Shown here: in pieces, positions 9,103 through 58,440 of the stretch
Layout: every line of letters begins with the position of its first letter
How positions within the stretch are numbered: position 1 is the first letter of the stretch
Assembly: GCA_030068145.1 (NCBI GenBank)
Contig: JAPJBO010000047.1
Span: forward strand, 248,001 to 312,000
Length of the DNA: 64,000 nucleotides
Reading direction: 5' to 3'
Origin: Diplonema papillatum
Taxonomy: Eukaryota > Euglenozoa > Diplonemea > Diplonemida > Diplonemidae
Program-made: the position numbers and the translations under genes
The notes under the pieces: model-generated
What the model was told of the DNA's origin: nothing
Databases searched by the model: none
The model's input: only the letters and a program-made list of their open reading frames with translations

Positions 9103-9372
9103 CCCCCAAGCACGCTGCCAGCGTTTTCTTACGAGTTTGCGGTCAGTTGTTATTATGAATGGCATATGCACCTCCGCCAGCTGCTCCCCCACCGCAAGGC
9201 GTAGAGCAAGCTCGACGAGAAGCGCCCGGCTTTCGGGCGTGATCCCGGTGATCTGCAACCTCAAGGGCTGCAACAGCACGATCTTCTTCGAAAACCGCAA
9301 GCACAAGGACCTCTACATGTGGCCCCCCCAGGCGCACGAGGGGCCGTCGTCTGGTTGCTGCTGAGCAACGCC
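9103..9372 (+). pseudogene. Broken partial copy of BRX1 exon 1 with its upstream block
   Basis: The first 65 bases copy the sequence just upstream of BRX1 (CACGCTGCCAGCGTTTTCTT). The copy then jumps at about 9168 into coding sequence equivalent to 9665-9865. It carries an in-frame TAG (AAGGCGTAG), an extra C after GAGAAGCGC that shifts the frame, and a collapsed TGGCCCCCC end. It ends where the parent's upstream block starts, so the two are arranged in tandem. It cannot encode a Brix domain. Confidence 0.85.
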
Positions 9373-9434
9373 CCCAAGCACGCTGCCAGCGTTTTCTTTC
9401 CGAGTTTACGGTTAGTTGCTATTACGAAAAGCAA

Positions 9435-10986
9435 ATGCAAACCAAGCAGGATACACGAACAAAGAGAACAAAAAGAAGCAAGCGAGTCGGGGGGAGAACG
9501 ATGAGCGAGGACAAAACGATGAGCGAGGACAAAGCAATCACGGCGACGAGCATGATCGGCAACGTGTCGATCGCGCCGACGCCAAGCCGCGTCAAAAGCG
9601 CGAACAAGCAGAAGTGCCTGGTTTTCGCGAGCCGCGGCATCTCGCGGCAGGAGCGGCACTTCCTGATCGACCTCCGCCAGCTGCTCCCCCACCACAAGGC
9701 GGAGAGCAAGCTCGACGAGAAGCGCCGGCTTTCGGACGTGATCCCGGAGATCTGCAACCTCAAGGGCTGCAACAGCACGATTTTCTTCGAAAACCGCAAG
9801 CGCAAGGACCTCTACATGTGGCTCGCCCAGGTGCCCGAGGGGCCGTCCATCCGGTTCCTGCTGAGCAACGTGCACACCATGGACGAGTTGAAAATGCCCG
9901 GCAACTGCCTGAAGGGCTCGCGCCCCATCCTGTCGTTCGACAAGGCGTTCTCCGAGCAGCCCGAGCTGCAAATCATCCGCGCGATGCTGACGCAGACCTT
10001 CGGCACGCCCCGGCACCACCCGAACTCCAAGCCTTTCATCGACCACGTCTTCTGCTTCTTCTACATCAACGGCCGCATCGCGTTCAGGAACTACCAGATC
10101 GTCGACGAAGTGGACCCGCAGACGAAGAAGCTCGACCGGTCCTTGCTCGAAATCGGACCCCGCTTCACGATGCAGCCCATCCGCATCCTCAACAGCACGT
10201 TCGTGGGTAGCACAGTCTGGAAGAACCCGGACTTCGTCAACCCGAACGAGGTGTGTTTTGATAGTGTCAGAGTGTTGCTGTACAAAACGCAAAAAGTACT
10301 GGGCCGCGAAACAACGTATCAACACACGCCTGCGTGGCGGTCTCGTCCGTCAGTCAGAACGAACCCAGCTGCGCCACCATCGGTGCAATCATCATCTTTG
10401 ACTGGGCCGCGGCCCGCACCGCGCCCACGACGTAACGACTTACGCCCGCCGTAGTAGTACGGGACAGTAGTGGGGCGACCGGATACTCCCCGGAGAGATG
10501 GTCCCTGCACTCTAGCTCGTCTCTCTCTCTCTCACACTTTGTTGTGTATGGTTAGCAGATCGATCCAAGATGTCAGTTGATATGTTCATGTCGACCCTGT
10601 CACAGAAACCCCAGGAGTAATCTGTAGGTGCTCCGTCGGGACTATAGGGTTAGCGTGAATAGAACAACAGAAGCTCTTCAACAATGCTTTCGTGGGTACG
10701 TGACTTGATTCGAGCCCAGCTTCAGGGTTGCCCTCGGAAGAGGTTCACTGGGAAAAGGTAGGTTGTTCTGCCTGCACGAAACTGATTGCCCTGCATTCAT
10801 TTCATATTAACTCACGTGGCTGGGAGCCATATACCTCAAAACACTCTTGAACAGATGCGGGCGCGGGCCAAGGCGAAGGCCACTCGTTACGTGGAGAGAA
10901 AGCGGGCCATCAACAAGCGTGAGAAGTACGTCGGCGGCAAGGGCAGCGCTCCCGAGCCGTCGCCGGTGGACAGAGTGTTCAAATGA
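9435..10986 (+). CDS. BRX1: Ribosome biogenesis protein BRX1 (Brix domain)
   Basis: BRX1 is a nucleolar factor for assembly of the 60S ribosomal subunit. Exon 1 is 9435-10250 and exon 2 is 10855-10986. The intron 10251-10854 begins GTGTGT, ends CAG, and is phase 0. Hallmarks of the family read through in order: FASRGISRQERH, DLRQLLPH, DLYMWLAQ, FLLSNVHTMDELK, NCLKGSRPILSFD, FIDHVFCFF and LLEIGPRF. The Brix domain covers about residues 50-250. Exon 2 supplies the basic tail typical of BRX1. The protein is 315 residues from ATG 9435 or 293 from ATG 9501, which has a better context; yeast BRX1 is about 290. The intron carries Repeat F. A broken copy of part of exon 1 lies immediately upstream. 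Confidence 0.95.
10351..10536 (+). repeat. Repeat F, copy 1 (in the BRX1 intron)
   Basis: About 185 bases similar to 51945-52131 in the same orientation. Both start CAGTCAGAAC, share GCTGCGCCACCATCGGTGCA, CGACTTACGCCCGCCGTAGT and GGGGCGACCGGATACTCC, and end in a TC dinucleotide run. One copy is intronic and the other lies upstream of VPS26C. Confidence 0.9.
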
Positions 10987-14558: not shown

Positions 14559-14698
14559 GGAGCTTCTTCGCCGCCAGGCCCTCGACGCGCGGCTTCAACC
14601 AGTCGATGTCGGCGCCGAAGCTCTGCCAGAAGCGCAGGGCATCTTCCGACCCGACAGAATCGACCACGCGCTTGTCAAAGCGGAGCTTCTCCGCCGAG
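14559..14698 (-). pseudogene. Inverted fragment copy of the 5' coding region of the Ser/Pro-rich gene
   Basis: Read on the - strand, 14559-14661 matches 15187-15290 of the downstream gene with few differences (GATGCCCTGCGCTTCTGGCA, GCTTCGGCGCCGACATCGAC). A second short inverted piece (14662-14698) repeats the CGGAGCTTCTCCGCC segment. A third, direct-orientation piece at 14886-14925 matches 15349-15388. None is open in the parent frame across its length. Confidence 0.8.
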
Positions 14699-15116
14699 GT
14701 CATCTTAGATTCAGTGATGATTCACAATCGGACAGGGTAGCAGGGGGGTATAGCCGCGCCTTCCGGCAGCCCTACGGTTTATCCCTATCCAGGTGTCGTG
14801 TTGCATGTGTTCTCATAGTCATCGCTCTGCGCCAAGAGAGAGAACACACACAAAACAAGCCAAAGAAAAAGGTGTGGCATAACACCGCTGCGCCGGCTTC
14901 AAATGCAGGTGCAACCGGAGGGTGGGTTGTACTACCAAAACGCGTGTGAATGCCCACCGCTTTCTAACTCCAGTTTCGACTCCAGCTTCTGAGGCTGTAC
15001 TCCACCGTGTAGTCCGGTCTATCGTATGTGTGACGGATCGCAACACCAAAACCGCTCAGGCCGCAAGGCCGACAGGACAGCCAAAGGAAAAGCAAAGGAG
15101 GAGGGAAGACCCAGCC

Positions 15117-16784
15117 ATGGCGGGCCGGATCGCCGCCGTCCCGAGCGCCACGAAAGGCGCGGAGAAGACGCCGGAAGACGTCGTGGTCGACTCTGTCCGG
15201 TCGGAAGATGCCCTGCGCTTCTGGCAGAGCTTCGGCGCCGACATCGACTGGCTGAAGCCGCACGTCGAGGGCCTGTCGGCGGAGAAGCTCCGCTTCGACA
15301 AGCGCGTGACGGCGGCCGTCGACCAGAACAACCCGATCTGGCTCGAAGCGCCGCTGCGCCGGCTCCAAATGCAGATGCAACCGGCCGCGGGCACCCGCGC
15401 GCCGAAGGCCCGCGCCGACGCCCGAGCGCGGGAAGAAGCCGTGTTCAGAGAAATCACCCGGATCCTGCACACCTGGGACGCGAGCACGCTGAAGGACCCC
15501 GAACAGTTCGTCGTGTCCCTCCGCCAGGTGCTGAAGCACGCGGCAGGGGTCCATGCTTCAGCGAAAGTCGGCGGCATGTCGCTGCTCGTCCACGTTTTGA
15601 AGGAGGCCCGGGTGTCCATGGACGCTGCGAACCTGCTGCTGTCGACGTGGGCCTTCGTCCTGTTCGAGTTCGAAGAGACGGCGGCCCGCCTGAGACCCCT
15701 CCAGATGCTGGCCGATGAGCTCCGGAGTGAGGGATTCGCGCTCTTTTTGAAGACAGCGCTCGCCTTCGTCAACGACTGCTTCCCCACACGCCGGGTGGAA
15801 GGGTTCAATCTGTACCTGCTCGGCGAGATCGACGGCCCGCTGCTGCGCGCCTTCATGGCGTCCCTCGAGAAGTATGACCCCCAGGGCTCCATCCACCGGT
15901 ACCTCACCAAAACCCTGTCGCCGATTGCGGATCGGGCGTCGGTGCTGGTGGACAGCTCGGCGGACAAGGAGGGGTTCGAGGACTTGCTCGCCGGAATGGC
16001 TGCGTGCCGGCGGCTGCTCGACGTTCCGCGGCTCGACGGGGGGGTGAAGGGCAAGGTCGTCGCGTTCCTCGCGGACAACCAGGCGGCGGCGGCCGCGCTG
16101 GTGGCCACTGGGGGGTTCCTCGGGCTCGTTGATGAGCGCGGGGTGTACTGCGAGCCGGGCCAGGCGACCTTCTGCAAGCACGGCCTGCCCAGCTGGATCT
16201 CCTGCGCCCGGGACCCCGCCCGAAGGCGCCCCATCGGGGCACCCGCGCCGAACGGCGGGCATCCCCCCCCGTGTCCACCAGCGGTTTCGGGAAGCAATCC
16301 CGGCGTGCAGGGCAGCCCGGGTCTGGCGCTGCCGGGCGGCGGCAACAGCAGCAGCAGCAGCAGCGGGGGGGTGTCGCCCGCGCTGCCGCTTCCGAATGCG
16401 GTCGGAGGTGTGCAGCACGCCGGCCCTAATGGGGCGGGTCAAGTGCCGGTGCCCCCGGCGGCGGGGACCGCGACGGGTGCACACCCGCCGCCGCCGCCTC
16501 TGCAACCGAACACGGGTTTGCAGGCCCCTGCAGGAGGGGTCGGGAGTAGTGGAAGCAGCAGCAACAGCAGCGGCAGCAGCGCCGTCCTGGCAGCGTCAGG
16601 GCCCCCCGTGCCGCCGCCCCTGCCAACCACGGGTTTGCAGGCCCCCGCGGGAGGGGTCGGGGGCGGCAGCAGCAGCAGCAGCAGTTTCGTCCAAGCAATG
16701 CAGACCTGGGCGACTCCAGCGCCCGCGCCCCCCGTGCCGCAGGCAGGCGTCACGAGTTCGCAGGCCCCCGCTGGGTTTGGGGGT

Positions 16785-16850
<66 letters not shown>

Positions 16851-16949
16851 TTCGTCCAAGTAATGCAGACCTGGGCGACTCCAGCGCCCGCGCCCCCCGT
16901 GCCGCAGGCAGGCGTCACGAGTTCGCAGGCCCCCGCTGGGTTTGGGGGT

Positions 16950-16991
<42 letters not shown>

Positions 16992-19367
16992 TTTGTCCAA
17001 GTAATGCAGACCTGGGCGACTCCAGCGCCCGCGCCCCCCGTGCCGCAGGCAGGCGTCACGAGTTCTCAGGCCCCCGCTGGGTTTGGGGGTAGTAGCAGCA
17101 GCAGCAGCAGTAGTGCCATGCAAGGAGGCCCAATCGGGGCGCCGGGGCCCCCCGTGCCGCCGCCGCTGCCGAAGCCGGGCGCTGCCGGCGCGGCGGCGCC
17201 GCCGAACGCGCCGAGCCTGCCGGCGGACCGGATGCTGCTCCGGCTCGCCCGCGGGCGGCAGCCGCGGATGTTCCCGTCGCAGGACTTCTCGGCGAAGCGG
17301 CTGCTGCGGTGCGTCGCGTCCGTCTGCCGCGCGCTGCGCGGCTACGACCCGAAAAACCCGCGCTTCCGCGGCGATTTCCAGCCGTGGCGCCTCCAAGGCT
17401 ACGTGATCCCCGCCGCCACCCACGGCCTCTGGAAGACCATCAAACAAGCTCACCTCGCAGGGCTCGAATCCCACTTGGAAGGCGTGCTGCGCGAGATCAA
17501 AACCATCGCGGAAATGCCGGAGTCCGACCTCGACACGAAGCTCCTGACGCTGGTGTACATGATCAAAGACCTGGACGACACGCCGTGCGGCGATGACGCC
17601 GGGGTGCCGGAGCAGAACGTCGCGAAGCTTCGGTGGCTGGTCGACAGCATTTACGTGCTGTACCGCCATCTGCACGGTTCGGAAGCTTTGCAGGGCGAGG
17701 GGGCTTTGTACAAGGTGCGCAGGCTGACGAAGCTCTTCGCGGACATCGGAATAGACCCGCGGAGGAGACTCGCCGTGTGGGAGACGATGATGAACTTTCG
17801 GAAGAAGTTCGACGAGCGGTCCCGCGGCACCGCCGAGGTGCAGGCGCGGTTGTTCTCAGTCATGCAGGAAGACTCCATCAAGCAGCTGGTCTCAGCGGCG
17901 TTGATGCACGCGAGGCAGCTCAGCGGGTCTGCGCAGGTGGACACGAACCGACTCGCAGCCTGCCGAAGCCTGTGCAAACACTTCGCCCTTCTCCGCGCTA
18001 TGGTCGACAACTTGTGCAAGAATTACAGGGGCGTCCTCGTCCTTGAAGACGCAGCCCGGCTGTTGCCGTCCCTCCTCAGCATCAACGCTCGGATGAAAAA
18101 CGTGGACGGTGAGCTGCTGGGCCTTCTCGCTCCCGTCGATCTCGAGCTGCAATCCGAAAGCTGGCATCGGCTCGTCCGGAAGCAATCGTCGACATTTCGT
18201 CTGCCCGCACCTCTCCGCTCGCCGCAACCGCCTTGCACCTCGGAGCAGCGGCTGTCCCCAGGCGTTGCTTCGATGCCTAGCTCCCAACAAGGCCCCGAAC
18301 GCGAGAATAGTCCGCCCCTGGGCTCGCCGCAACCGCCTTGCACCTCGGAGCAGCGGCTGTCCCCAGGCGTTGCTAGCTCCCAACAAGGCCCCGAACCCGA
18401 GAGTAGTCCGCCCCCGGGCTCGCAGCCACCGTCCGCAACCAACACCCAGCCAACGCATGGTCTGCACGGGCCCGAGACAAAGGCCTGCGGCACTCATCCG
18501 CAACCCGACTCCCCGCCAACGCAGCATGTTGATTGTGGCGCTGATTTGAAAATCTCCGACTCCCAGCCAACGCAGCATGTTGATTGTGGAGCTGATTTGC
18601 AAATCTCCGACTCCGAGCCAACGCAGCATGTTGATTGTGGCGCTGATTTGCAAATCTCCGACTCCCCGCCACCGCAGCAAAACCCCGGAACTAAGAACAC
18701 TTCACCCCCTGGCACGCAGCAGCAGGAGCCTGGTGCGCCGCAGTTTCCTCCCGATGCCGCGACCTTCGACACCGCTTCGCAACCCCCAGGCTTTTCGTCG
18801 ACCACAGCCGAAACCGAGACCAGTTCTGGTTTGCGGAGCCGCGACCCTGCTCCCACTGCACCCACGTGCCACGAGCCCGAAACCAAGCTGTTTTCGGTGA
18901 ACGACCGCCAGTTTGCACTGCGCGTGGACCGGTTGCCCCCTGGCTCGTTGCTGGAAGCATTCGCTTTCACGACGCTGTCCGTTGATGTCGACGCCAACGA
19001 GAGTGTCGTCCTGGACCCGGATTGTGTCGACGCAATGTCGTTCGCGCACGTTGCCGAGATCGTGAACTACGGCTCGCTCCCTACGGGGCTGGCAACCTGC
19101 GAGTGGAACAAACTCAAGCAGACGCTGAACTATTTGAACGCGCACGAAATTCTGGACTTCCTCGTCGAGTACGACTACATCTACTTCGACAAGCTCACCA
19201 ACTTCGCTGCCGGCGCTCATGCAGACGTTGCTGCGGTATCGCCCGTGGCTGAAGAAGCAACGGACACCCTTGAGGTGCTCACGCTGCTTCTCAAAAGTGT
19301 GACGCGCATTTACGAGCACATCGACACGCGACACGTCACCACCTTCTTTCGGCAGGCGGACTTATGA
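15117..19367 (+). CDS. Large Ser/Pro-rich protein with C-terminal BTB/T1-like domain, function unknown
   Basis: A single open exon encodes 1,416 residues. Residues 1-360 are mixed-charge and mostly helical-looking, with no family I recognise. Residues 360-700 are a low-complexity linker with poly-Ser runs coded by AGC. It holds three near-identical modules containing MQTWATPAPAPPVPQAGVTS. Residues 700-1025 form a second ordered region (FSAKRLLRCVASVCRALRG, LLTLVYMIKDLDD). Residues 1030-1255 are another Pro/Ser linker with repeats PTQHVDCGADLQISDS. Residues 1259-1350 resemble a BTB domain of the potassium-channel tetramerisation (T1/KCTD) type: LFSVNDRQFALRVDRLPPGS, then VLDPDCVDAMSF and EIVNYGSLPTG. 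If so, a role in oligomerisation or cullin recruitment is possible but unproven. ATG 15117 is the first in-frame ATG after a purine-rich leader; the frame is open further upstream. Confidence 0.75.
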
Positions 19368-19529: not shown

Positions 19530-19606
19530 GGACACCTTTTTTGAGGGCTCATTCTCAAAAGCGTGACGCTGATTTACGGACACATCGACACACGACACGT
19601 TACCTT
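19530..19606 (+). pseudogene. Echo of the 3' coding end of the Ser/Pro-rich gene
   Basis: The segment CTCATTCTCAAAAGCGTGACGC and the following ACACATCGACAC, ACGACACGTTACC pieces match 19276-19345, the last codons of the gene just upstream. Related fragments occur at 19381-19500 (ACTTGTGCACCTGTCGGC has no parent, but TTCGCCAACC and GCAGCCGTCGCTGCGG resemble 19199-19240). It is a decayed tandem copy of the gene end, without an open frame of its own. Confidence 0.65.
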
Positions 19607-23133: not shown

Positions 23134-23648
23134 CGCATGAAGGGGTGCCCTCACCATGTATCGCGAAAGCTAAAATGACGTATACCCTGAGCGTGTTTTG
23201 GTGATAAGCGTTCTTAACGGGTAAAGGGGAAGCCGTGTTCAAGCAGAATGCTGCCAATCTACCCAGCTTGACGCGGGGTGGAGGTTGGAGAAAGGATTAC
23301 TAATTAGCAAGCCATTGTTCATGGGAACAGAATCGTAGATCGTCTCCTCGACACGAGTGTTCTGGATGTTCTCAGCCCTCAACCTGACCTAGAACGAGAG
23401 TGAGTACAAGTGGGAAAACGAGCAACCGGCACCAAAACACAAACGAAGCGCATGGAGCCGTCGAATTGGAACCGGGAGAGGAAAGCATAGAATTACAGAA
23501 AAACCTTCCTGAGGGGGGCTGGTCCCCCAGCGAAACGGACGGCATCGTCAACGAAACCACGCCGAGCAAGCCGCCGCCCCCTCTCTTTTTTCCCAGGGAT
23601 TCGGGAGAATAATTGATCGGAAATGCCTTCAGTTTCTTCTTTTTTGAA
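23134..23648. other. Intergenic stretch with a Repeat B fragment
   Basis: No gene recognised. At 23386-23452 the sequence ACAAGTGGGAAAACGA, GCAACCGGCA and CAAACGAAGCG resembles the right part of Repeat B. A frame over 23400-23612 is driven by this repeat and is not credible as a gene. Confidence 0.45.
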
Positions 23649-23856
23649 TAAGCACCTGCTTTGTAGGAAATGCTTGAGGAGACTGCTAGTCGCGATAGAT
23701 CAAAGGAGGTAAATGTGTTGTAGCCCGCACGAAACACAGGTAAATCTGGGTTTAGTGGCGTAATCGTTCAACAAAAAGACCCACTTTGTAGTTATATTGT
23801 TTTCCTCCCTCTAGCCTTCTTCGAAATGAGCACAAGGCAGTCCCTCGAGTATTTTG
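23649..23856 (+). mobile_element. Repeat C (MITE-like), copy 3, abutting LSU rRNA
   Basis: A full copy of the family. Its right terminus, CCTCGAGTATTTTG, is followed without a gap by large-subunit rRNA sequence. In intact 28S rRNA that position is preceded by a GCGGG motif, absent here. The junction therefore marks either an insertion into rDNA or a recombination breakpoint at the element end. Confidence 0.8.
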
Positions 23857-24600: not shown

Positions 24601-24921
24601 CAACCGACCGAAAACGAAAATGGCTGGGCGGACCTGCCATGAAGAGAATATACAAAATGCCCAGTCAGTTTACTTCACAGATGCCGCCACCCTGCGAAAA
24701 GAAACCAAATTGCAACCTCAAGTTGGGCCGGCACCTCGAGTGATTTAACAGATCGCTCAAAACTTAGACACGGCTGTGAGGGGCTTCTCCCAAAGACGGA
24801 ATTTCTTGTACTCTGGAGGTCCTGGCTGCAAAAGTGACTGGTCTGACCAGTTTGGCCTTTGCCCGGTGTACTGCTCCCCTTTTCACACTGCCAGTCAGTT
24901 CCGTTTGTTTTCTTTTTTTTG

Positions 24922-25200
24922 TATAAGCACCTGCTTTGTAGGAAATGCTTGAGGAGACTGCCAGTTGCAAAAAATCAAATAGTGTCGTGCATCGGCATGC
25001 CGGTGACTCCCCACTATCGCAACAATATTCCAAGATCAGAGGAGGTAAATGTGCTGTAGCCCACACGAAACACAGGTAAATCTGGGTTTAGTGGCGGGCG
25101 TAAGCGTTCAACAAAAAAGACCCACTTTGTAGTTGTATTGGGTTCTCCCCCTCTAACCTCCTTCGAAATGAGCACAAGGCAGTCCTTCGAGTGTTTCTGT
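24922..25200 (+). mobile_element. Repeat C (MITE-like), copy 4, with an internal insertion
   Basis: Both termini are present (AAATGCTTGAGGAGACTGCC; CCTTCGAGTGTTTCTG). Relative to other copies there are about 60 extra bases after AAAAAATCAAA (about 24978-25038). They interrupt the usual GATCAAAGGAGGTAAATG junction and repeat part of it (AAGATCAGAGGAGG). A further truncated copy of the left half lies at 25378-25510. Confidence 0.75.
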
Positions 25201-27824: not shown

Positions 27825-28020
27825 CTTCGGTTAGAGTCGCACAAGGCATTTCCATTACAAAAAACTTCGGTTAGAGTCGCAAGCCATTTTCATTGAGAAA
27901 AACTTCGGTTAGAGTCGCGTAGAGCATTTTCATTACAAAAAACTTCGGTTAGAGTCGCAAGCCATTTTCATAGAGAAAAACTTCGGTTAGAGTCGCGTAG
28001 AGCATTTCCATTACAAAACA
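27825..28020 (+). repeat. Minisatellite of about 38-bp units with alternating variants
   Basis: Five units start CTTCGGTTAGAGTCGC. Odd units continue with a GCATTTTCATTACAAAAAA type ending and even units with AAGCCATTTTCAT then GAGAAAAA. The higher-order unit is therefore a dimer of about 78 bp. Confidence 0.9.
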
Positions 28021-28108
28021 CTTCCTGAAAGGAATGGTTTGGACGCACGAACACCCACCGTGACGATCACCTTCCACTCCTAGGGGCACTTTTGCTGTGA
28101 GAATGCAT

Positions 28109-29057: not shown

Positions 29058-29168
29058 CATATACAAACCGTAACCATAAAGCCCTTTCTTGCTCTAAGAG
29101 AACCCATTCATGAACGGTCACACGGAGACCCTAAAACCCCGGTATTTCAAGCGAACTTTAACTCTAAA
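29058..29168 (+). repeat. Repeat A, copy 4
   Basis: Contains AACCATAAAGCCCTTTCTTG, CTCTAAGAGAACCC, CGGTCACACGGAGACCC and ends AACTTTAACTCTAAA. It lacks the 5' part seen in the 8.6-kb copy. It lies just before an antisense LSU rRNA fragment. Confidence 0.85.
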
Positions 29169-29282
29169 AACAAGAAGTACCCCCGTAGAACAGACACCCT
29201 GATTCGTCAAGCCTCGCAGATTCCCTCGGAAAATCCGTGAGACATAAGAAGGAATCGCGAGGAGCCGCGGCATCCCGCATGT

Positions 29283-29362
29283 GTCCTGAGAGCCGATTAT
29301 TACCCCCGAAGTTACGGATGTACATCCGACTTCCCTTACCTACGTTGTCAGCTGAGCTTTTA
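29283..29362 (-). pseudogene. Antisense large-subunit (28S) rRNA fragment, copy 1
   Basis: Read on the - strand it shows the conserved 28S block AAGGGAAGTCGG...CCGTAACTTCGGG...GGCTCT in altered form (AAGGGAAGTCGGATGTACAT, CCGTAACTTCGGGGGTAATA, ATCGGCTCTCAGGAC). It is part of a unit of about 650 bp that is tandemly repeated, the second copy being at 29943-30020. It is degenerate and oriented against the host genes. Confidence 0.8.
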
Positions 29363-29470
29363 GACCCGGTGCAAGCGAATGATTCCTCATGTGTAGGATG
29401 GTAACCCAGTCCCCCCGCACGGATCGACCCTTTTTCCAAAAAGAAACGACTCGACACATCATCCAGGTTC

Positions 29471-29832
29471 GTCCGAAGCTTGTCACAAAGATTTTACTAA
29501 AGCAGGGGTCCCCAGGAATGGTGAAGAGCAATGGCGATCCTTTTGCCTTGGAGGAGGAAGAGCGAGTGAAGGAGCTGTACTACCAGCGCACCGAGCTGCT
29601 GCGTCGGCCGGGGGTGGACGGGATCAGCGACTTCTTGAGGGAGCTCGCCGTGGAGCCCGCGGGGGACCTCTTGCAGCGGGCCCGCGCGCGCGCGGCGGAG
29701 ACGGGCTCCGCCTGGTCAACGCCATCGCGCTTGTGTCGGAGCACAAGGCGCGGTTCCTGCAGCAGCGCGGCGCCGCGGCGGCCGAGCAGTACCAGCTCGA
29801 GAACGCGTTCGCCGCCCTCCGTTTCCGGCTGG
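29471..29832 (+). pseudogene. Frameshifted copy of exon 1 of the EF-hand/IQ gene
   Basis: Matches 30146-30510 including the 5' flank (CCAGGTTCGT, GTCACAAA, GTCCCCAGGAATGG). ATG 29519 opens MVKSNGDPFALEEEER and stays in frame for about 60 codons. A four-base deletion at GGGCTCCGCCTGGTCAACGCC, versus GGGCTGGATCCGCCTGG in the parent, then shifts the frame. The copy ends at about 29832 in sequence shared with 26.05 kb. It probably preserves the original start context better than the intact gene does. Confidence 0.85.
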
Positions 29833-29942
29833 TCTGCCGTTTGTCTGCGCAGCCTGCGTGAAGCTGACCAGAGAGTTGCCGACCCTTCATTGCAGGCATG
29901 CCATGACAAGAAGCAGTCGGGAGCCTCGCGACATCCCCGCAT

Positions 29943-42300: not shown

Positions 42301-45300
42301 CGTTGATCCCCTCCCGCTCTCTTCCCGTCGTCACAGCCTCTGGTCTTGTAGACCCACCCGCTCTGGTCTTGTTTCAGCTGCTGTATCACAAATCTCCTGA
42401 AGAACACCGCATTCCTTGGCAGCTGCGACTGGGCCACCTCGTGTGCGTGCCCTTCCAAAACGTCCTTCTCTACGGACCTCCAAACAGCCTCTCTCTCCTG
42501 TTGCCCGTCCTGGTCGATGGCTCCTGTGCACAGCCTCTCGCAGCCGCTCCTCCACGGATATCTCTAGAACACTCTCCTCTCTTAAGGGCCAGTACTCAGG
42601 ATACCCTATCACTCCCGTCATGGGGCAGCCTTCTCTCAGGTTCCGGATAGGCTGCGGTACTCCCTCTGCTTCTGCGCAAACTCCAGTCTCCCGCACCATC
42701 TCCAGGAGCAAGTCTGTGAAGACGCCTTCGGATTCCCGGTGGGAAAGGGCCGCGCCCCTTCTCCTCCAGAGCTCGATCGCGGCCTTCCTTCCTCGTTGTA
42801 ACTCCGCCCTCGTCAACACCGCCGCCCTCTCGATCGCCTCGCGGATATCTGGTTCCACCTTCCACTTTTGCGCTCCAAAGATCACCGGTAGCGCCTCAAC
42901 CGCCTTGTGCACGTGATCACTCTCATTCACTGCCCCCGCTATCGTTTCATACAGGCCTCTCTGCTTACCGCACTCCGGGCTCCCAGCTGACTTCAGCGCA
43001 TTGACTGCAGGCAACTCACGCACCCCCCCCTCTGTGGCTTGCATACCTTTGCCTCCTACCTTCAATGTGGTCTTCGGTAATGGGGGCAGAGGCGCCTCCG
43101 ACTGAGGCTCCTCCGTCCGTCGCGTCTTCGCAGCCGGCGCCTCGGTTCCTGGAGCGAACTGGCGCTTGAGGCTGATCTGGTCTAACACTTCTCTGTCGAG
43201 GCTGACCAGCATGCGCCATGCGTCCTCATCAGTCGTCGTCAATGACAGCCTGCGCCTCAGCTTTGCGTCATACTCCACCGCTACAGCCTGGCTCACCCGC
43301 GATGCGAGCTCTTCCAGCACCGCCGAGTAGCTCAGCGCCGCCCCCAGTGTCCTGCTCCCGTGGTTCACTGAGTGCACGCCCGTCGTCTCCTGGGCGAAGC
43401 AGCCCGTTACCCCCCAGCAAACAATCAGCCTCTGCAGCGCTGCAAGCTGCATGTTGAACGGGAGCCGCACCCCGTTCTCCTTCTGCGCGGTTCTCATCAG
43501 GGACGTGCTGATCGCCCGGTCGACCGCTCCGTCCGCAGAGTTCTCGAGTTACGCTCTCCCAGAAGAACTCCTTGTCCCCTCCGTCCAGAGTGGAGCTGCC
43601 GTTCTCCGGGTCCTTCCAGTCCCTATCCCTTGGGACCCAAGGCGCGCGTTTCAAGTCGACCAGGGAAAGCTCCTCTTCTCCTGCTCTTGCTTGAACCTGA
43701 CGGTGTCCACCATCTCCTGCGTCGGCTTCAGCATCCCGTACACCGCCGTCAGCTCCATCTTGGGCCAACCCTCCTCCACCAGAACTCGCCGAACCGGACG
43801 TTTCCTGCTGCTGGCGAGCTTTCTCTCGGCGTCCCTCTTCTGCACCTCGCACCTCTCGACCAGCTTCCTGATCTTGAGGCAGACCGAGATCTCCTTCGGC
43901 TTCAGGCCTTCGTGGCGCATGTCCGCCGCAGCCTCGTACACTGAAACGAACTCGGTGACGCTCAGGCACGCAACTTTCACGAGAGTCCGAAGAAGTACCC
44001 AGCCCTCCCGACAGAAGAAGGCGTCGGACCCGGTCGCTCTCCCCGCAGTCACCACCTCGTAGAACACTGTCGTCATCAGCTGGCGCCTTTGCTCCGCGGA
44101 CAAGTTATCTGCCGGCGCTAGCGGCTGCACCGGATCCAAGCCAAGGTTGTCGTACGCCTGCCTCATGTCGGAGGCGACTCCTAGGGCCCCATCCGCCGGC
44201 AGAAGCCTTTTCCGCCATTGATCTTCCGTTATCGACTCCATTCTTCCTTCGTAGTTAGTTCCTTCACTCCTGCTCAAGATGGTGGCACTTGTTTACAGAT
44301 GCATGCCGGCTAGCGGGCCAGCTCGTTCTACTCAAGACCCTCCCGCACATGACTGCTACAGCTCATGCGCTGGGCATGCCTCGAGCCTGATTCCATACGC
44401 TCGGCTGCCGACCATTACTATGCCTGATTCCAGACGCATGACGGCCAGCGGGCCAACGTGCGCGGGCCTGAATCCGGACGCCCGGCCACCTCCTCCCGCA
44501 CATGCCTGATTCCAGCACATGGCGTTCGGAGAGTTGACTCGTACTCGATCCTGATTCCAGACACTCGGTACTGCCGACCTATGTCCTGCCTGATTCCAGA
44601 CGCATGACGGCCAGCAGGCCAACGTGTGCGGGCCTGATTCCAGACGCCCGGCACCTCCTCCCGCACATGCCTGATTCCAGCACATGGCGTTCGGAGCGTT
44701 GACCCGTACTCGAGCCTGATTCCAGGCGCTCGGTACTGTCATGCCTGATTCCAGACGCATGACGGCCAGCGGGCCAACGTGCGCGGGCCTGATTCCAGAC
44801 GCCCGGCACCTCCTCCCGCACATGCCTAATTCCAGCACATGGCGTTCGGAGCGATGACCCGTACTCGAGCCTGATTCCAGACGCTCGGTACTGCTGACCA
44901 ATGCCATGCCTGATTCCAGACGCATGACGGCCAGCGGGCCAACGTGCGCGGGCCTGATTTCAGACGCCCGGCACCTCTTCTCATCTGCCTTCCTGCGTTC
45001 AGACTTCCTTATCTGTCCCGTGCCACATCCAGGACAAAGAATTCTCGCTTCTGCTGCGAGGGAGTTGAGCTGTTTCTCTCGTCCGGTGTCCAAAGCATGG
45101 ACGCCCAGCTTCTGATACAAAATTCTGGCATAGTGGCACAGGTTGATCTTGCTGACTGGCTCGACAGGTACTCCCGCGTTGCAAAGTGCAGCTTCCTTTC
45201 AACCCTTCAAAGGTAGGACAAAGCACACACACAAGAGACAACCAATAGCCATTTTCCCCTTACCCCTTCCCTCCTCCCAATGCTGTTGGTTCCTAGTTTG

Positions 45301-47145
45301 GTTCTGCTGATGCTGCTGCTGCTGTTCTACTGCTGCCCTTTCTGCTCTGCTGCTGCTGCTGCTCTGCTGCTGCTCTGCTGCTGCTGCCGCCTTTCTCGGG
45401 TAAGGCCACAGCGGTGGCGGTGATCAGAGAGCACAGAGGAGAAATAGGCCCCTGAGCACCGGTCACCCTTCTACGAATTTGCAGCGCACCCCCTCCCACC
45501 ATTCATGTTCGTGGTGTCGGTCGCAGGAGCGTTTTTCGGCGTAAGTACAAGAGTGAAAGAGTACGTACAGTAGTGAATAGAGAAGAGAACGAGTGCAGAA
45601 GAGCGGTGATAGTGCAAATTATCGAACCGACGAAGCACCGCCGATATCCTTGACTTCTCTGATTCCACAAAACCAGAACCATTAACCACGGCTCCCTTCA
45701 GATCAACAAAGCCGTGTTCTTCGACACGGTCGACATCGACCACAAGACGGGGAGGAGAGTGGCGATCAACGTCAGCGGAGGCGCCGTGCGACCGCGGGGG
45801 AAGTGCCACTGCGTCGTGAAGAAGTGGATCGACGAGAAGGGTTACGGTTTCGTGGAGGACGTCGAGACGGGGGACGAGATCTTCGTGCACGCGAGCACCC
45901 TCGGCGAGGGCGGGTACCTGGAAGAGGGCCGGGAGGTCTGGTGCGACACGCAGGTCGAAGAGCGCAAAGGCGACAAAAAGTCCGGCTACAACCTCACGGG
46001 ACCCGGCGTCCGCGACTCTCAGGACGCACCGCCCGCCGCCAGTTACCCGGCCGCTGGCTACCGTGCCCATCCGGCCCGGAGCCAGGCGCGTGCCGGCGGC
46101 GGCGCCGGTGCCGGCGGCGGCGGCGGCGCCGGCGGCGAAAAGCGGGCGGACGTCGACGGCAACATGTACACGCGGGCCGAGTTCGTGCAGCACTACGGCG
46201 GCACCAAGCAGTGGGACGAGAGGGAGAAGCGCATCTCGCCGAAGAACGGCCAAGCCTACACCAAGGACAAGTTCATGGTAATGCCCTTCCCTTCCCACCC
46301 TTTGGTGGGGCGGCACATCTTTTACACATTAACGCAGGTGTCCTAAGGCAAGCTCAGCGGGAGCAGAAATCTCGCGTAGAGCATAAGGGTAAAAGCATGC
46401 TCGATACACGATCTTCAGTACCGATCCTCGGTGTGAAAGCATGGCCTAACGATCCTTTGGTCTCGCTTCATGTTCAAGGGATGAAGCCGGAGGTGACATA
46501 AAAATTACCACAGGGATATCTGACTTGTGGCAGGTACAGTACAGTGAAGTCCAGCTTCAGAAGCAGGAGCTGGAGCTGGAGCTAGAAGCCCGTCCCCTCT
46601 CAGGACCCTCATGGCCTCTGCGGAATTTACATTAGTTTTTTTTTCCTCTGGAGGTTACGGCAAACCTGTCGGAGTCTTCAAAGAAACAGGGTTCCTTACA
46701 GGGCAACTTACACTCGAAAAAGTGGCCCTTACCCAACGAACCAGCAACCTGAGGTACACACCACACCGACAGTCTAAAACCACCTTTAAGAACACGCAGC
46801 ATTAAAAGGTTATCCCTACTGCTGCGAAAATCAGCCCGACACCTCTAAAAACCACCACGAAGTTCTTGCTCTAAGAGAACCCATTCATTGACGGTCACAC
46901 GGAGACCCTAAACCCCCGGAATTTCAAGCGAACTTTAACTCTAAAATAATGCCTCACAGAAGCATTTCGGCGGACTCGACGAGTGGAAGGCCGCGAAGAA
47001 GTTCCAGGAGGGCATGTCTGTGCCGGCTCCCCAATACAACGCGAGACCGCAGTTTAACGCGCAAACGAACCAACGCGACGCAATCGTCGGGCGGGGAGGC
47101 AGCCGAGTTGTGCTCGGCGGCATCCAGGGCAGGGGAAGCCGTTGA
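36393..47145 (+). CDS. Triple cold-shock-domain nucleic-acid-binding protein, split by a 9-kb intron
   Basis: Exons 36393-36746, 45702-46277 and 46960-47142 (TGA 47143-47145) encode 371 residues. Cold-shock domains bind single-stranded RNA/DNA through RNP1 and RNP2 strands. CSD1 is residues 3-65 (KGCGFIKGDDG, EYFTHKDAL). CSD2 starts at about residue 76 (RSYGFIAPS, KVYVHLSAF), ends exon 1 at GASLQ, and resumes in exon 2 as INKAVFFDTVDID...AINVSG, completing the fold in phase 0. CSD3 is in exon 2 (KGYGFVEDV, EIFVHASTL), followed by a Gly/Ala linker. The exon 2-3 join gives KDKFM-KHFGGLDEWKAAKKF, also phase 0. The tail is RG-like. Intron 1 (36747-45701, GTCCGC...CAG) is packed with transposon remains. 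Intron 2 (46278-46959, GTAATG...CAG) holds an rRNA fragment and Repeat A. Unspliced, exon 1 alone would give CSD1 and half of CSD2. Confidence 0.85.
36782..36936. mobile_element. MITE with G-run terminal inverted repeats (Repeat R)
   Basis: The left end, AAGGGGGGGGTCGAATAATA, and the right end, its reverse complement, bound 155 bp of AT-rich non-coding DNA. It lies 35 bases inside the 5' end of the giant intron of the cold-shock gene. A lone right end (TGTTATTATTCGACCC) lies at 58571-58586. Confidence 0.85.
36960..37003 (-). mobile_element. Repeat C fragment (copy 6)
   Basis: Only one terminus with about 40 bases is present (ACTCGAGGGGCTGCCTTGTG, CTTCGAAGGAGGCTAGAG), reversed. It lies 20 bases after the Repeat R element. 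Confidence 0.75.
37371..38730 (+). pseudogene. hAT-like transposase remnant 1 (with C-terminal dimerisation segment)
   Basis: An open frame 37371-38303 (310 codons) begins with a basic leader containing QSTLQGFV and continues as an unrecognised helical region. A frameshift near 38240 moves the frame (PPILQEAEGELPGVLAAL...), and a second break follows TAA near 38364. From 38398 a third frame gives the hAT dimerisation signature, LLMPLANASPERLFSMLKLL then KTRLRGSLGDDSLQELLTLL. The central RNase-H-like region with its acidic residues is largely missing, so the copy is inactive. The segment 37313-37361 just before the ATG recurs at 63598-63643, probably an element end. Confidence 0.65.
38935..39070 (+). 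repeat. Repeat N, left copy
   Basis: About 130 bases nearly identical to 45161-45302 in the same orientation (GGTACTCCCGCGTTGCAAAG, TCAACCCTTCAAAGGTAGGA, CCAATAGCC, TTACCCCTTCCCTCCTCCCA). The pair encloses 6.1 kb holding the second hAT remnant and the reverse-transcriptase remnant. They could be terminal direct repeats of a retroelement or a segmental duplication. Confidence 0.85.
39352..39575 (+). repeat. ATAACGTTAT palindromic array
   Basis: Tandem and partly degenerate ATATAACGTT units. Each contains the palindrome AACGTT, so the array reads nearly the same on both strands and could form many small cruciforms. The middle third (39400-39480) is diverged, with ACCGTTATT words. Confidence 0.9.
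39600..39905 (+). repeat. GGCCATTTTTGCC-type degenerate array
   Basis: About ten imperfect units combine TTTTGGCCATTTTTGCC, GATTTTTCCAG and ATTTTGGTC. The spacing is about 28-33 bases. The pattern is T-rich on this strand and open in all three frames, so translated products are artefacts. Confidence 0.85.
40100..41530 (+). pseudogene. hAT-like transposase remnant 2 (zinc finger + catalytic core), one in-frame stop
   Basis: ATG 40100 opens a basic, KAQPKAQP-repeat leader, then a BED-like finger (CLACKKAMPGKN...HMGNMRSHAVTH, about residues 149-173). A core of the RNase-H-like transposase type follows: LVHDGSTIGTWG, a YSDCGAANGAL segment and a RCILHFA box like the hAT C..LH motif. At 41216 one TAA interrupts the frame. 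The same frame continues (NTINDFDKKATRDAKGR) to about 41530, where similarity-like sequence gives way to the antisense retroelement. The C-terminal dimerisation part is missing. Family assignment is by motif pattern only. Confidence 0.6.
41560..44277 (-). pseudogene. Retroelement remnant with gag-like and reverse-transcriptase regions
   Basis: Read on the - strand from ATG 44277, a Gag-like helical region (about 209 codons) runs on through at least one frameshift near 43655. A frame follows to about 42331 (LPFNMQLAALQRL, RRGAALSHRES). Several more shifts lead into reverse-transcriptase motifs: DHKDAYRQVKAC (palm aspartate), FGEKASVPHYNAL, the catalytic box LVAYFDDFITPG at about 41970-41985, and TFLGLVN...GKLLF near 41690-41870. 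The order fits an LTR/DIRS-type pol. RNase H, integrase or recombinase domains are not visible. Multiple frame breaks make it inactive. It lies antisense in the cold-shock gene's giant intron. Confidence 0.75.
44400..44990 (+). repeat. Tandem array of about 150-bp units
   Basis: About four units consist of CCTGATTCCAGACGCATGAC, GGCCAGCGGGCCAACGTGCG, CACCTCCTCCCGCACATGCC and CACATGGCGTTCGGAG. The word CTGATTCCAGACGC occurs several times per unit, so the unit itself arose from a shorter repeat. A long minus-strand frame (to 45120) is a by-product of the array. Confidence 0.9.
45161..45302 (+). repeat. Repeat N, right copy
   Basis: Direct partner of 38935-39070, about 90% identical by eye, with an extra ACACAC in AAAGCACACACACAAG. 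It is followed immediately by a CTG-rich tract. Confidence 0.85.
45300..45395 (+). repeat. CTG-rich microsatellite
   Basis: Interrupted TGCTGCTGCTG runs (about 45308-45390) within the giant intron. There is no associated coding frame on the + strand. Confidence 0.85.
45509..45600 (+). repeat. Repeat K, copy 1 (100 bases before an intron acceptor)
   Basis: Matches 59252-59356 upstream of the TauE/SafE gene: GTTCGTGGTGTCGGTCGCAG, GAGTGAAAGAGTACGTACAG and TAGTGAATAGAGAAGAGAAC. Both copies are followed within 60-130 bases by CCACAAAACCAG and then by a coding exon. Confidence 0.8.
46347..46540 (+). pseudogene. Large-subunit (28S) rRNA domain V fragment inside an intron
   Basis: Follows the 28S peptidyl-transferase region: GCAGAAATCTCGCGTAGAGC, AAGGGTAAAAGC, TTCAGTACCGAT, GTGAAAGCATGGCCTAACGA, TCC, GAGGTGACA and TTACCACAGGGATATCTGAC, TTGTGGC. 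The near-universal GGGATAACTGGCTTGTGGC is changed at two positions, so it is a pseudogene. It sits in sense orientation in intron 2 of the cold-shock gene. Confidence 0.9.
46862..46947 (+). repeat. Repeat A, copy 5, ending 13 bases before a splice acceptor
   Basis: Carries TTCTTGCTCTAAGAGAACCC, GGTCACACGGAGACCC and ends AACTTTAACTCTAAA at 46946. The acceptor CAG of intron 2 is at 46957-46959, so this repeat lies over the usual branch-point/polypyrimidine zone of the intron. Confidence 0.85.
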
Positions 47146-52131: not shown

Positions 52132-52135
<4 letters not shown>

Positions 52136-53378: not shown

Positions 53379-53709
53379 CGAGCCGGCCGCCGTTCTTGCC
53401 AGTCGAAGACAGGCAAAACTACCTAGTGACACTAAACAGCGCAGTCCGACCGAAATACGGGGTTGTACGTCCCCGTCTCTAGCTCGTGGTCTCCACGGTT
53501 GTTCAACCGAACGCTGCTGTGGCTTCGGCTGGGACGTGAAGACAGTGGAGGTGTAGGGGATGCGCGCGTCCACGAAGCTACCAGCTTCGTGGCCAGCTTT
53601 CATCTGTCCCCGGTACCTCGCTGGGCGGGTGACCCCCAAAGTGGTGGAAATAGCTTGGCCATTAACCACGCCCATCAGCCAGGGGGTGGTTTTCCCGTTT
53701 TTTTTTGTG
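53379..53709. other. 3' flank of VPS26C
   Basis: No gene. A short inverted repeat, CACGAAGCTACCAGCTTCGTG (positions 53571-53591; 10-bp arms), could form a hairpin in a transcript. Confidence 0.5.
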
Positions 53710-53924
53710 TGAGCACCCGCTTTGTAGGAAATACTTGAGGAGACTGCCAGTTGCGATAGATCAAAGGAGGTAAATGTGCTGTAGCCCACACAAAACACAG
53801 GTAAATCTGGGTTTAGTGGCGGGCGTAAGCGTTCAACAAAAAAAGACCCACTTTGTAGTTGTATTGTTTTCTCCCCCTCTAGCCTCCTTCGAAATGAGCA
53901 CAAGGCAGTCCCTCGAGTATTTGT
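53710..53924 (+). mobile_element. Repeat C (MITE-like), copy 8
   Basis: The cleanest full-length copy: left terminus AAATACTTGAGGAGACTGCC, interior GATAGATCAAAGGAGGTAAA and GGTAAATCTGGGTTTAGTGG, right terminus CCCTCGAGTATTTG. It is very similar to 23649-23856, indicating recent activity. Confidence 0.85.
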
Positions 53925-54934: not shown

Positions 54935-55670
54935 ATCACTTCGTTGTAGCAAATTCGGCGTAGCATGCTAAGCCATCGCTGAAGAGCATCGGCACACCGC
55001 ATTTATGAATCGACGCAGGTACACCGCGCGGCGGCAGTCACCTAGTTGTAGCCAATTCGGCGTAGCATGTTAAGCCATCGCCGAAGGGCATCGGCACACC
55101 GCAGTTATGAATCGACGCAGGTACACCGCGCGGCGGCAGTCACCTAGTTGTAGCCAATTCGGCGTAGCATGTTAAGCCATCGCCGAAGGGCATCGGCACA
55201 CCGCATTTATGAATCGACGCAGGTACACCGCGCGGCGGCAGTCACCTAGTTGTAGCCAATTCGGCGCAGCATGTTAAGCCATCGCCGTAGGGCATCGGCA
55301 CACCGCAGTTATGAATCGACGCAGGTACACCGCGCGGCGGCAGTCACCTAGTTGTAGCCAATTCGGCGCAGCATGTTAAGCCATCGCCGTAGGGCATCGG
55401 CACACCGCAGTTATGAATCGACGCAGGTACACCGCGCGGCGGCAGTCACCTAGTTGTAGCCAATTCGGCGTAGCATGTTAAGCCATCGCCGAAGGGCATC
55501 GGCACACCGCAGTTATGAATCGACGCAGGTACACCGCGCGGCGGCAGTCCCCTCGTTGTAGCCACACAATTCGGCGCAGCATTCTAAGCCATTGCCCAAG
55601 GGCATCGGCACACCGCATTTCTTTCTGAATCAGAAACCAACGCAGGCCACACCGCGCGGCGGCAAGCCAG
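54935..55670 (+). repeat. 102-bp tandem array upstream of the choline-transporter-like gene
   Basis: About seven units carry GTTGTAGCCAATTCGGCG, TAGCATGTTAAGCCATCGCC, GGGCATCGGCACACCGCA, GAATCGACGCAGGTACACCG and CGCGGCGGCAGTCACC. The central units are almost identical; the first and last are diverged. The last unit merges into the gene's leader about 110 bases before the ATG. It could be a multiplied promoter or 5'-UTR module. Confidence 0.95.
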
Positions 55671-55776: not shown

Positions 55777-57942
55777 ATGGCGGACGCCCCTCTGGACCGG
55801 CTGGATTCTGATGCAGGCGAGGCAATCTTCGACAGCAGGCGCTGGCGCGAGGTGCAGAAGACCGGCATCCCGGGAGAATTCGAGCGGGTCCTCCCGGATA
55901 CCGTACTGTGCACCGACGGTCTGTCGGTGCTGTGGCTCCTCGCCGCCGTGCTGTTGTACGCCGGCCTCTGCTATCTGGCCGCGCAAGACGTGAGCCGCGG
56001 CGTTTGGTCGACGGAGCCGGCGTACGACTACGAGCGCAACGCGTGCGGCGTCCCGCCGCTGGCGGGTCGCCGGTTTTTGTACGCGCCCCTCCCCACGCGG
56101 CCACTGGTCCCGCTTTGCGTGGAGGGCTGCCCCGGCACCGGGTCCGTCGTGTGCCGAAACGGGTACGCGGGCAACGGCACGGGGGGGCTGGGCGGCGCGA
56201 TCTCGAAGCGAGAGTGCTTCACGGTGGAATACAGCTCGGAAGCTGTATTCGACCGATGCATTCCGACCAGCCGGGTACATTGGAACCAAACAGAGGTCCA
56301 CGCAACCCTCGAAGGGAGTGATCCCGTGACCGTGTCAACGGACGCGATCACCTCCCAGCTCCTCGGCGGCGTTCTACAGGCAAGCCTCCTCGAGCTTCCT
56401 GCTGCGCTCCGCCCGGCGGCCGCCGCCTTCGCGGCGGCCTTCGCCACGTCGCTGCTCTGGCTGCTCGCCCTGTCGACGGCGTCGCCGCTGCCGCGGCGGG
56501 GCCGGGCTGTCTGCCTAGGGCTGCCCGGGTTCGGCGTCGTGGCCGCGGTGCTGGCGGCCGGGGGGGCGTTCTTCGGGGAAGGCAGCCGCCGCGTGCCCTA
56601 TGTCGGCGACGGCGGCGCCGGCGAGGAGCCGGCCGGCGGCGTCGACGCGTCATGGGCATATGCGGTGGGCTGCGGGCTCCTGGTCTGCGCGGCGGCGTGG
56701 TTTTCGGGGTGCATGGCGCTGCGGTGCGGCCGCTGGGGCAGTGCGGGCGTGGCGGTTGACCTATTGGCGCCGCTGACCGGGGGTTTGCGGGAGGGTCCCG
56801 GAATCGCGCTCACGACCGTGTTGCTGATGCTGGTGCAGATTTCAGTGCTGGTGGTCGGAGCCGCCGTTCTGCTCCAGCTGGCATCGAAACGAATCCTCGC
56901 CGTTTCCACCGTCCAGCTCCCGCACCTTGACGGCGACGCCACGGAGTACACGACGTATTCCGTGACCACAGCTTCTGTGAACATGTGGTGGCAGCTGCTT
57001 CACCCGGTCAATCTGGGGCTCACCTTGTTTCTCTTCAACTTCGTCGGGTCCTGCTCTGCGTTCCACCTGGTCCATGCGACCGCCTTCTGGTACTTTTCAG
57101 CCCGGACGCCCGGGAGTCCGACGCTTTCCGCGCCTGTATTGTTCTTGTCCCCCGTGTTTTGGAAGCGCCTGGGCACCGTCGCTGCGTCGGCGGCCGCGGC
57201 GTCGTTCCTCCCGCCCGCGGTGCTCCTGCGGTCGGCGGCCGGATGCCGGGGGGGGAAGGCCGGGCGCGGGCTCGTGCGGGCGCTTCCGGAGAAGGGCTGC
57301 TTCGCGTTCACGCTGCTTTTCGGGTGCGACTGGGGGTCCGCGGCACGGTTGTTTGCGGGGGTAGAGGCGCTGGACTCGCCGCTGCGGCCGGTGGCCGAAG
57401 GCGTTGCCACGCTCCGGGCGTGCTTGTCCATCAGCAAGGTCTTCTGCTCGGTCGCGACCTCCGTCGCGCTGTGGGTGCCGCTGGTCCGAAACTCCGGGTT
57501 CCCCGTCGGGCTGGCGCCGTTCGCGGCCATGGTCGTCGCGTCGTACGCCGCTTCTTTCCTCGTTATCGGGCCCGTCTCCACAGCCGCCGACGCCACGCTT
57601 CTCCTCTTCCTCATCGAATCCTCCGCCGTCCTCCCGACCTCCGACTCGACCCCCATTCGCGCCCCATCCCCGCTGCTCGGCCTCGTCTGGTCCCGGGAAG
57701 GCGGGGTGCGTCCTGCCGGAAACCCGCCGCCGGCGGCCTTCATGCCGCAAGCGGTCGAAGGCTACCCGTTGCAGACGCCCGAGATCGTCGACCTGTCCGA
57801 AGAAGAGCCGTCGGCCGGCGCGGCCGAGGGTTTCGGGGTCGAAAGCGTCTCGCGTGCGGGGTCCCGCGTCAACTCGTCGGCTCGCGAGGCCTGGAGCGAT
57901 GTCGAGATGACTAAGAGCGATGGCACAGCGGTGCTATCTTGA
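55777..57942 (+). CDS. Choline-transporter-like protein (CTL/SLC44 family)
   Basis: CTL proteins are multi-pass membrane proteins; animal members carry choline or ethanolamine. A single exon encodes 721 residues, within the usual 600-750. TM1 is at about residues 49-68. The following outer loop has the family's Cys pattern (YERNACG, then LCVEGCPGTGSVVCR). Many hydrophobic segments follow (about nine more). The C-terminal CTL domain shows LFNFVGSCSAFHLVHATAFW then YFSARTPGSPTLS, a VFWKRLGTVAASA region and ISKVFCSVATSVALW. The start is ATG 55777; a GTG upstream in frame is not needed. Directly downstream lie two copies of the last 70 or so codons, and upstream is a 102-bp tandem array. Substrate cannot be inferred. 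Confidence 0.75.
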   Translation: MADAPLDRLDSDAGEAIFDSRRWREVQKTGIPGEFERVLPDTVLCTDGLSVLWLLAAVLLYAGLCYLAAQDVSRGVWSTEPAYDYERNACGVPPLAGRRFLYAPLPTRPLVPLCVEGCPGTGSVVCRNGYAGNGTGGLGGAISKRECFTVEYSSEAVFDRCIPTSRVHWNQTEVHATLEGSDPVTVSTDAITSQLLGGVLQASLLELPAALRPAAAAFAAAFATSLLWLLALSTASPLPRRGRAVCLGLPGFGVVAAVLAAGGAFFGEGSRRVPYVGDGGAGEEPAGGVDASWAYAVGCGLLVCAAAWFSGCMALRCGRWGSAGVAVDLLAPLTGGLREGPGIALTTVLLMLVQISVLVVGAAVLLQLASKRILAVSTVQLPHLDGDATEYTTYSVTTASVNMWWQLLHPVNLGLTLFLFNFVGSCSAFHLVHATAFWYFSARTPGSPTLSAPVLFLSPVFWKRLGTVAASAAAASFLPPAVLLRSAAGCRGGKAGRGLVRALPEKGCFAFTLLFGCDWGSAARLFAGVEALDSPLRPVAEGVATLRACLSISKVFCSVATSVALWVPLVRNSGFPVGLAPFAAMVVASYAASFLVIGPVSTAADATLLLFLIESSAVLPTSDSTPIRAPSPLLGLVWSREGGVRPAGNPPPAAFMPQAVEGYPLQTPEIVDLSEEEPSAGAAEGFGVESVSRAGSRVNSSAREAWSDVEMTKSDGTAVLS

Positions 57943-58440
57943 AAAACGACATCCCGCCTCGCTTCCTTTGCTCATTCTTCTCCGCTGCTGGACCTCACCG
58001 GTTCATGCCGCAAGCGGTTGAAGGCTACTCGTTGCAGGCTCCTGAGATCGTCGACCTGTCCGAAGAAGCCGTCGGCCGGCGCGGTCGAGGGTTTTGGGGT
58101 GGAAAGCGTCTCGCGTGCGGTCCCGCGTCAACTCGTCGGCTCGCGAGGCCTGGAGCGATGTCGAGATGACTAAGAGCGATGGCACAGCGGTGCTATCTTG
58201 AAAAACGACATCCCGCCTCGCTTCCTTTGCTCATTCTTCTCCGCTGCTGGACCTCACCGGTTCATGCCGCAAGCGGTTGAAGGCTACTCGTTGCAGGCTC
58301 CTGAGATCGTCGACCTGTCCGAAGAAGCCGTCGGCCGGCGCGGTCGAGGGTTTTGGGGTGGAAAGCGTCTCGCGTGCGGTCCCGCGTCAACTCGTCGGCT
58401 CGCGAGGCCTGGAGCGATGTCGCCTCCCAAGCCCACAAGG
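57943..58440 (+). repeat. Two tandem copies of the 3' end of the choline-transporter-like gene
   Basis: A unit of about 259 bp (57940-58198, then 58199-58417 and onward) begins TGAAAAACGACATCCCGCCT and includes a copy of the last coding part (ATGCCGCAAGCGGTTGAAGG to GCCTGGAGCGATGTCGAGAT). The two copies are identical as far as I can see until the second leaves the pattern at CGATGTCG. Relative to the gene they lack 6 bases in GAAGAAGCC and 4 in GCGTGCGGTCCC, so they are not in the parental frame throughout. Confidence 0.9.

Follow-up and report, generated by a model that had tools for sequence, protein, structure and literature searches.

Partial, local copies of gene ends accompany four of the nine host genes (BRX1, a Ser/Pro-rich gene, a gene at 30-34 kb and a choline-transporter-like gene) in a 64,000-nucleotide stretch of the Diplonema papillatum genome, which we refer to as the window. 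These echoes are very likely the products of ordinary partial DNA duplication filtered by selection, a phenomenon that has already been described for this organism (Valach et al. 2023, PMC10161547). The first-pass annotation had counted echoes at five of the nine genes or more, and self-blastn and pairwise alignment of the window lowered this number to four. The same methods bore out its description of the echoes as partial, local and recurrent, and the coordinates it had given were close to ours. The features of the window are as follows:

9103-9370, plus strand: upstream copy of parts of the BRX1 5' region, made up of pieces A1 and B1 with the middle piece lost (self-blastn, alignment)
9371-9870, plus strand: parent stretch at the BRX1 start, with A2 (9371-9439), an uncopied middle (9440-9669) and B2 (9670-9870)
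14559-14697, minus strand: two overlapping inverted pieces that copy 15182-15308, at the 5' coding end of the Ser/Pro-rich gene
14885-14918, plus strand: short direct copy of 15351-15384 of the Ser/Pro-rich gene (self-blastn, alignment)
16490-18679, plus strand: in-frame internal duplications of the Ser/Pro-rich gene (16490-17170, 18217-18431, 18505-18679), with offsets that are multiples of 3
19552-19604, plus strand: short copy of 19288-19340, at the 3' coding end of the Ser/Pro-rich gene (self-blastn, alignment)
29246-29818, plus strand: frameshifted copy upstream of the 30-34 kb gene, comprising its 5' flank and roughly the first 290 coding bp
29908-30497, plus strand: parent stretch of the 29246-29818 copy (self-blastn, alignment)
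33933-35822, plus strand: last-exon region of the 30-34 kb gene; two decayed copies come after it, together with a 14-bp satellite at 35439-35822
54936-55664, plus strand: array of 102-bp tandem units preceding the choline-transporter-like gene, which may lack coding sequence from that gene
57739-58422, plus strand: 259-bp unit in 2.6 tandem copies at the 3' end of the choline-transporter-like gene (self-blastn, alignment)

BRX1 was identified by its Brix domain (Pfam) and by BRX1 structures as homologues. Directly upstream of it we recovered the broken copy that had been noticed before, and its two parts resemble the parent at 87% (9103-9170 vs. 9371-9439) and at 93% (9170-9370 vs. 9670-9870). 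The order of the pieces is A1-B1-A2-X-B2 and the 230 bp between A2 and B2 are absent from the first copy; this arrangement reads as a tandem duplication combined with an internal deletion. Piece A is a member of a dispersed family (43 matches, 3 of them inside the window), and since A1 reaches further into this family than A2, the duplication unit probably began inside the dispersed element. When copy and parent were compared, 11 of 13 differences fell on first or second codon positions, which indicates no constraint of the kind seen for the 29246-29818 copy. At positions 9080-9160 of the window we also noted an 80-bp dispersed element that involves a short palindrome (ACGCTG C CAGCGT) and occurs at about 40 other places.

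For the Ser/Pro-rich gene all three echoes of the first-pass annotation could be aligned. Its 5' inverted piece (14559-14697 vs. 15182-15308) consists of two overlapping parts, 14559-14668 and 14665-14697, and the two pieces match at 94.5% and 97%. This inverted piece departs from a same-strand tandem geometry, and its two-part structure looks like the outcome of template switching. The 5' direct piece (14885-14918 vs. 15351-15384) is only 34 bp long with 94% identity and represents the weakest of all echoes, but still reaches an E-value of 3e-7 for the 64-kb window. The 3' piece downstream (19288-19340 vs. 19552-19604) comprises 53 bp with 87% identity (E = 1.7e-10).

The gene at 30-34 kb had been labelled as EF-hand/IQ gene, but a search of three reading frames yielded no Pfam family at E ≤ 0.001. 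Its frameshifted upstream copy is real (29246-29818 vs. 29908-30497, 85% identity) but begins upstream of position 29471, where the first-pass annotation had placed its start. This 573-bp copy includes about 284 bp of 5' flank upstream of the start, compared with a usual 5'UTR of about 70 bp (PMC10161547), and may extend beyond the transcribed part. In its coding part we counted 8 substitutions at 286 sites, 6 of them at third positions, and in the flank 39 at 274 sites. Because the coding part is far less diverged than the flank, this copy is unlikely to have been dead at its origin; its low coding divergence would be explained by gene conversion, or by a functional or constrained period before the frameshift. 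Downstream of the gene, the two decayed last-exon copies were confirmed as parts of the 3' array (33933-35822).

Two kinds of repeated sequence touch the surroundings of this copy. Positions 29272-29348 in its 5' flank match, at 82%-85%, places in rDNA repeats (e.g. C217, C15, C196), which lie on the other strand and 690 bp from the rRNA match of 46322-46530. These matches point to an antisense rDNA fragment, to which a diverged segment in the flank of the parent corresponds; Rfam listed no rRNA match at 29272-29348. Further upstream, a 112-bp dispersed repeat at 29059-29170 has at least 39 matches elsewhere at 99%-100% and resembles positions 8662-8773 at 95%; both are located upstream of echo-bearing genes.

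At the choline-transporter-like gene, the 3'-end copies reported downstream were verified as 2.6 copies of a 259-bp unit, which consists of the last 204 bp of coding sequence including the stop and 55 bp downstream; between copies 2 and 3 there is no difference over 166 bp. The multiplied module upstream was likewise recovered, as 6.6 copies of the 102-bp unit. With the exception of transporter copies 2 and 3, copy and parent share 78%-97% identity and frameshifts are found; most copies are 3%-22% diverged from the parent, indels included. For BRX1, the 30-34 kb gene and the transporter gene, pairwise alignment indicated that the copies reach beyond the coding part, and self-blastn placed them on the parent's strand, with the 5' part copied upstream or the 3' part downstream.

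Clustering of local duplications within 1 kb of gene ends was quantified in the window and in 200 kb from elsewhere in the assembly. For this purpose, local duplication clusters were defined by arms less than 2 kb apart, which gave 32 clusters in the window, some of them parts of one event; the borders of the nine genes were set by hand and are approximate. All clusters were shifted circularly around the window, 44% of which lies within 1 kb of a border. Here, we found 16 of the 32 clusters within 1 kb of a border, compared with a mean of 17.2 for the shifts (P = 0.745), and 11 within 500 bp, compared with 12.05 expected. Thus, there was no excess in the window at either distance. Seven clusters straddled a border (at least 25 bp both inside and outside the gene) vs. 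5.0 expected, which is a non-significant excess (P = 0.225). The sample from elsewhere comprised 20 stretches of 10 kb each (bases 30001-40000 of the even contigs C2 to C40). In these 200 kb, the 1-kb zones around the 32 coding ends make up 22% of the sequence and contained 7 of the 48 clusters, so that no excess was seen there either, and none of the 48 straddled a coding end. The window is therefore richer in straddling clusters than the sample, and its cluster density (32 in 64 kb) is twice as high (48 in 200 kb). Gene calls in the sample were crude: a threshold of 30 gave 17 segments in the real vs. 7 in the reversed sequence, and 6 of ten proteins submitted to Pfam scored over a cut-off. 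The 19 coding segments were reduced to 17 entries, since two of L030 were joined and a weak reverse-transcriptase-like segment (L023, 5740-6039) was dropped.

These data do not agree with the earlier view that the echoes are confined to gene ends. In addition to the lack of a border excess on shifting, duplications were found inside coding sequence (16490-17170, 18217-18431, 18505-18679, 32746-32946) and away from the nine genes (e.g. 3851-4578, 4846-5427, 27825-28024, 39614-39903, 44380-44980). For the coding-frame duplications of the Ser/Pro-rich gene and of the exon at 31.4-33.2 kb, which form four clusters, the offsets are divisible by 3 in all 8 rows. Another cluster within gene bounds, the fifth (31243-31391), falls between open frames and is probably intronic. 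The same process thus operates inside genes, and the in-frame offsets suggest that selection keeps frame-preserving duplications. Outside the window, a 9.8-kb coding-like stretch of the sample (L026, 74-9841) carries diverged internal repeats with 43 self-matches, the best-scoring of which has 68% identity; it is probably a giant repeat protein. Its repeats are in frame at the start in 42 and at the end in 43 of 43 rows.

Outside the window, we searched 271,365,524 bases in 2910 contigs with profiles of six families. The full set of the genome paper comprises 280,293,864 bases in 6181 contigs (PMC10161547), and short contigs were presumably left out of the searched assembly. The search gave 339 matches at 221 loci, a number that is approximate because loci were grouped by proximity of exon matches. 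A clear partial copy within 2 kb was present at 10 of the 221 loci: 3 of 80 for Ras, 5 of 53 for cyclophilin and 2 of 27 for actin, with none for the proteasome (0/15), E2 (0/31) and TCP1 (0/15) families. Partial copies beyond the profile escape this search, and classing was done partly by hand (C292, C137). In all ten clear cases the copy has the parent's strand and lies on the side that is expected for tandem duplication across a gene border. Six copies are located upstream; five of them carry the N part (C137, C304, C1278, C200, C403). The sixth (C292) was detected at profile positions 40-143 of 162, and its DNA alignment takes in the flank as well as the parent's match except for the final 56 bp; one of its two rows was labelled as C part, but the alignment sets in 102 bp ahead of the parent's match. 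The four downstream copies (C738, C221, C301, C1430) all carry the C part. C137 was counted despite a similar-length label, since the downstream exon copy alone is followed by the next exon.

Five of the ten loci were read as DNA. They contain direct repeats of 301-709 aligned bp with 83%-96% identity, and three copies each are present at C304 and C301. At four loci the DNA repeats exceed the profile match by at least roughly 100 bp, and at C137 the overhangs measure 11 and 47 bp; this flank may be partly coding. At the four window genes and at these five loci a terminal gene part is repeated adjoining the gene. Four loci with fuzzy exon ends (C859, C970, C61, C129; 26-30 overlapping profile positions) and five with whole-gene or whole-domain repeats (C1847, C71, C40, C972, C348) were left uncounted. 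The latter include C1847, where a row labelled as upstream with the C part is the first unit of a whole-gene array at the contig start. A decayed E2 copy at C36 lies about 3.5 kb upstream, beyond the 2-kb rule. Whole-gene tandem arrays were also seen for actin (C40; C972, spaced by 1652 bp, where four N-terminal matches contain one TGA each), for cyclophilin (C71, four equal scores) and for the Ras profile (C1847, units of about 1.3 kb).

The window contains further elements. Just past the second cold-shock-domain exon there is a large-subunit rRNA fragment (46269-46508), which is perhaps intronic, with a GT following the ATG at 46278. At least 39 further sites match positions 46322-46530 at 98% identity, and several of these belong to repeats spaced by about 7.6 kb, i.e. 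rDNA; the rDNA unit of this organism measures about 7.6 kb and about 3600 scattered 28S pieces were reported for its genome (PMC10161547). When 12 of the 20 sample stretches were searched for rRNA with Rfam, fragments above the cut-off were found in 3 of these random 10-kb stretches (L013 7424-7610, L021 9249-10000, L023 8950-9102). A dispersed repeat of about 230 bp occurs on both strands (5663-5883, 7434-7659, 23632-23855, 24907-25196, 53693-53922). Pfam gave an amastin-family match in the window, and the best PDB match of eS6 was 6zj3, the Euglena ribosome. A tRNA scan gave no tRNA, and weak Rfam miRNA matches were dismissed, since they were mostly on simple repeats.

The echoes are very probably partial tandem and in some cases inverted DNA duplications, mostly shorter than 0.7 kb, with ends that would fall anywhere. 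A duplication wholly inside coding sequence would survive only if the frame is kept, whereas one across a gene border would leave an intact gene and a truncated outside copy, which would usually then decay. Replication slippage, template switching and unequal exchange are likely sources. A shared DNA-level process of this kind (slippage or tandem duplication), which the first-pass annotation had considered, fits the data; the pattern recurs at 10 of 221 loci and in the published gene models (PMC10161547). Since an outside copy from a short tandem duplication must span the border, copies that are partial, local and at gene ends need no border mechanism. A border-specific hotspot, e.g. where R-loops or stalled forks form at the trans-splice acceptors or poly(A) sites of polycistronic transcripts, is very unlikely. 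The seven straddling clusters vs. 5.0 expected, the 10 of 221 family loci with a partial copy and the dozens of cases met during expert validation, for which the three largest contigs were inspected (PMC10161547), would be compatible with it, but there was no excess at 500 bp or 1 kb from the window borders, nor in the 200-kb sample, and such a hotspot is unneeded where short local duplication can derive outside copies solely from gene ends. It is very unlikely that borders are mild duplication hotspots, or that additional 5' ends provide reserve trans-splice acceptors, with border copies consequently retained or homogenised rather than being debris; the weakly diverged coding part of the 29246-29818 copy might hint at such retention or homogenisation.

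RNA-mediated reinsertion of truncated copies near the parent appears highly improbable. About 2500 gene models are annotated as retroelement proteins (PMC10161547), the copies are truncated, and with the presumed polycistronic transcription (PMC10161547) the flank in a copy is compatible with an origin from nascent RNA. However, local reinsertion as envisaged in the first-pass annotation does not match the ten clear cases, in which strand and side are never random but always those expected of tandem duplication, and several echoes are three-unit tandem arrays (C304, C301, the transporter gene). Assembly error or unmerged haplotypes, which had been named as the dull alternative, are just as improbable. 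The C527/C2510 pair with its identical match patterns may be redundant and the identity of transporter copies 2 and 3 over 166 bp would be in line with such an error, but most copies differ by 3%-22% with indels and the duplicated BRX1 coding piece was found, among the best 40 candidates scored, on the window's contig only. Moreover, D. papillatum is haploid, its assembly is PacBio-supported, and long reads confirm one array of this kind at DIPPA_19968 (PMC10161547).

Partial DNA duplication thus remains the preferred reading, and it has precedents. The paper on this genome describes dozens of gene models that are flanked by a repeat of one of their terminal parts; in these 'repeat-bounded' genes part of the 5' region (5'UTR and CDS) or the 3' end of an exon is repeated, and the repeats are reportedly absent from mature mRNA (PMC10161547). 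Copy identities of 71%-96% (47% for the most distal copy) were given there, compared with 78%-100% here, and tandem repeats are spoken of, whereas the Ser/Pro-rich gene also carries an inverted 5' piece. The sections of PMC10161547 examined contain no test of border preference, and ours on the window and 200 kb is a small first one. In other organisms, partial gene duplicates are truncated, arise at the DNA level, are often adjacent and sometimes inverted, and are favoured if the duplicated span is shorter than the gene; 21% of 290 young pairs in C. elegans and 53% of the pairs in D. pseudoobscura were assigned to this class (Katju 2012, PMC3449122; PMC2728529, 2009). These surveys concern annotated duplicate gene pairs, whereas the copies described here are mostly short decayed fragments. 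Echo copies mislead gene prediction, and they show how frequently short duplications cut across genes. That outside copies necessarily come from gene ends guards against inferring a special border mechanism.
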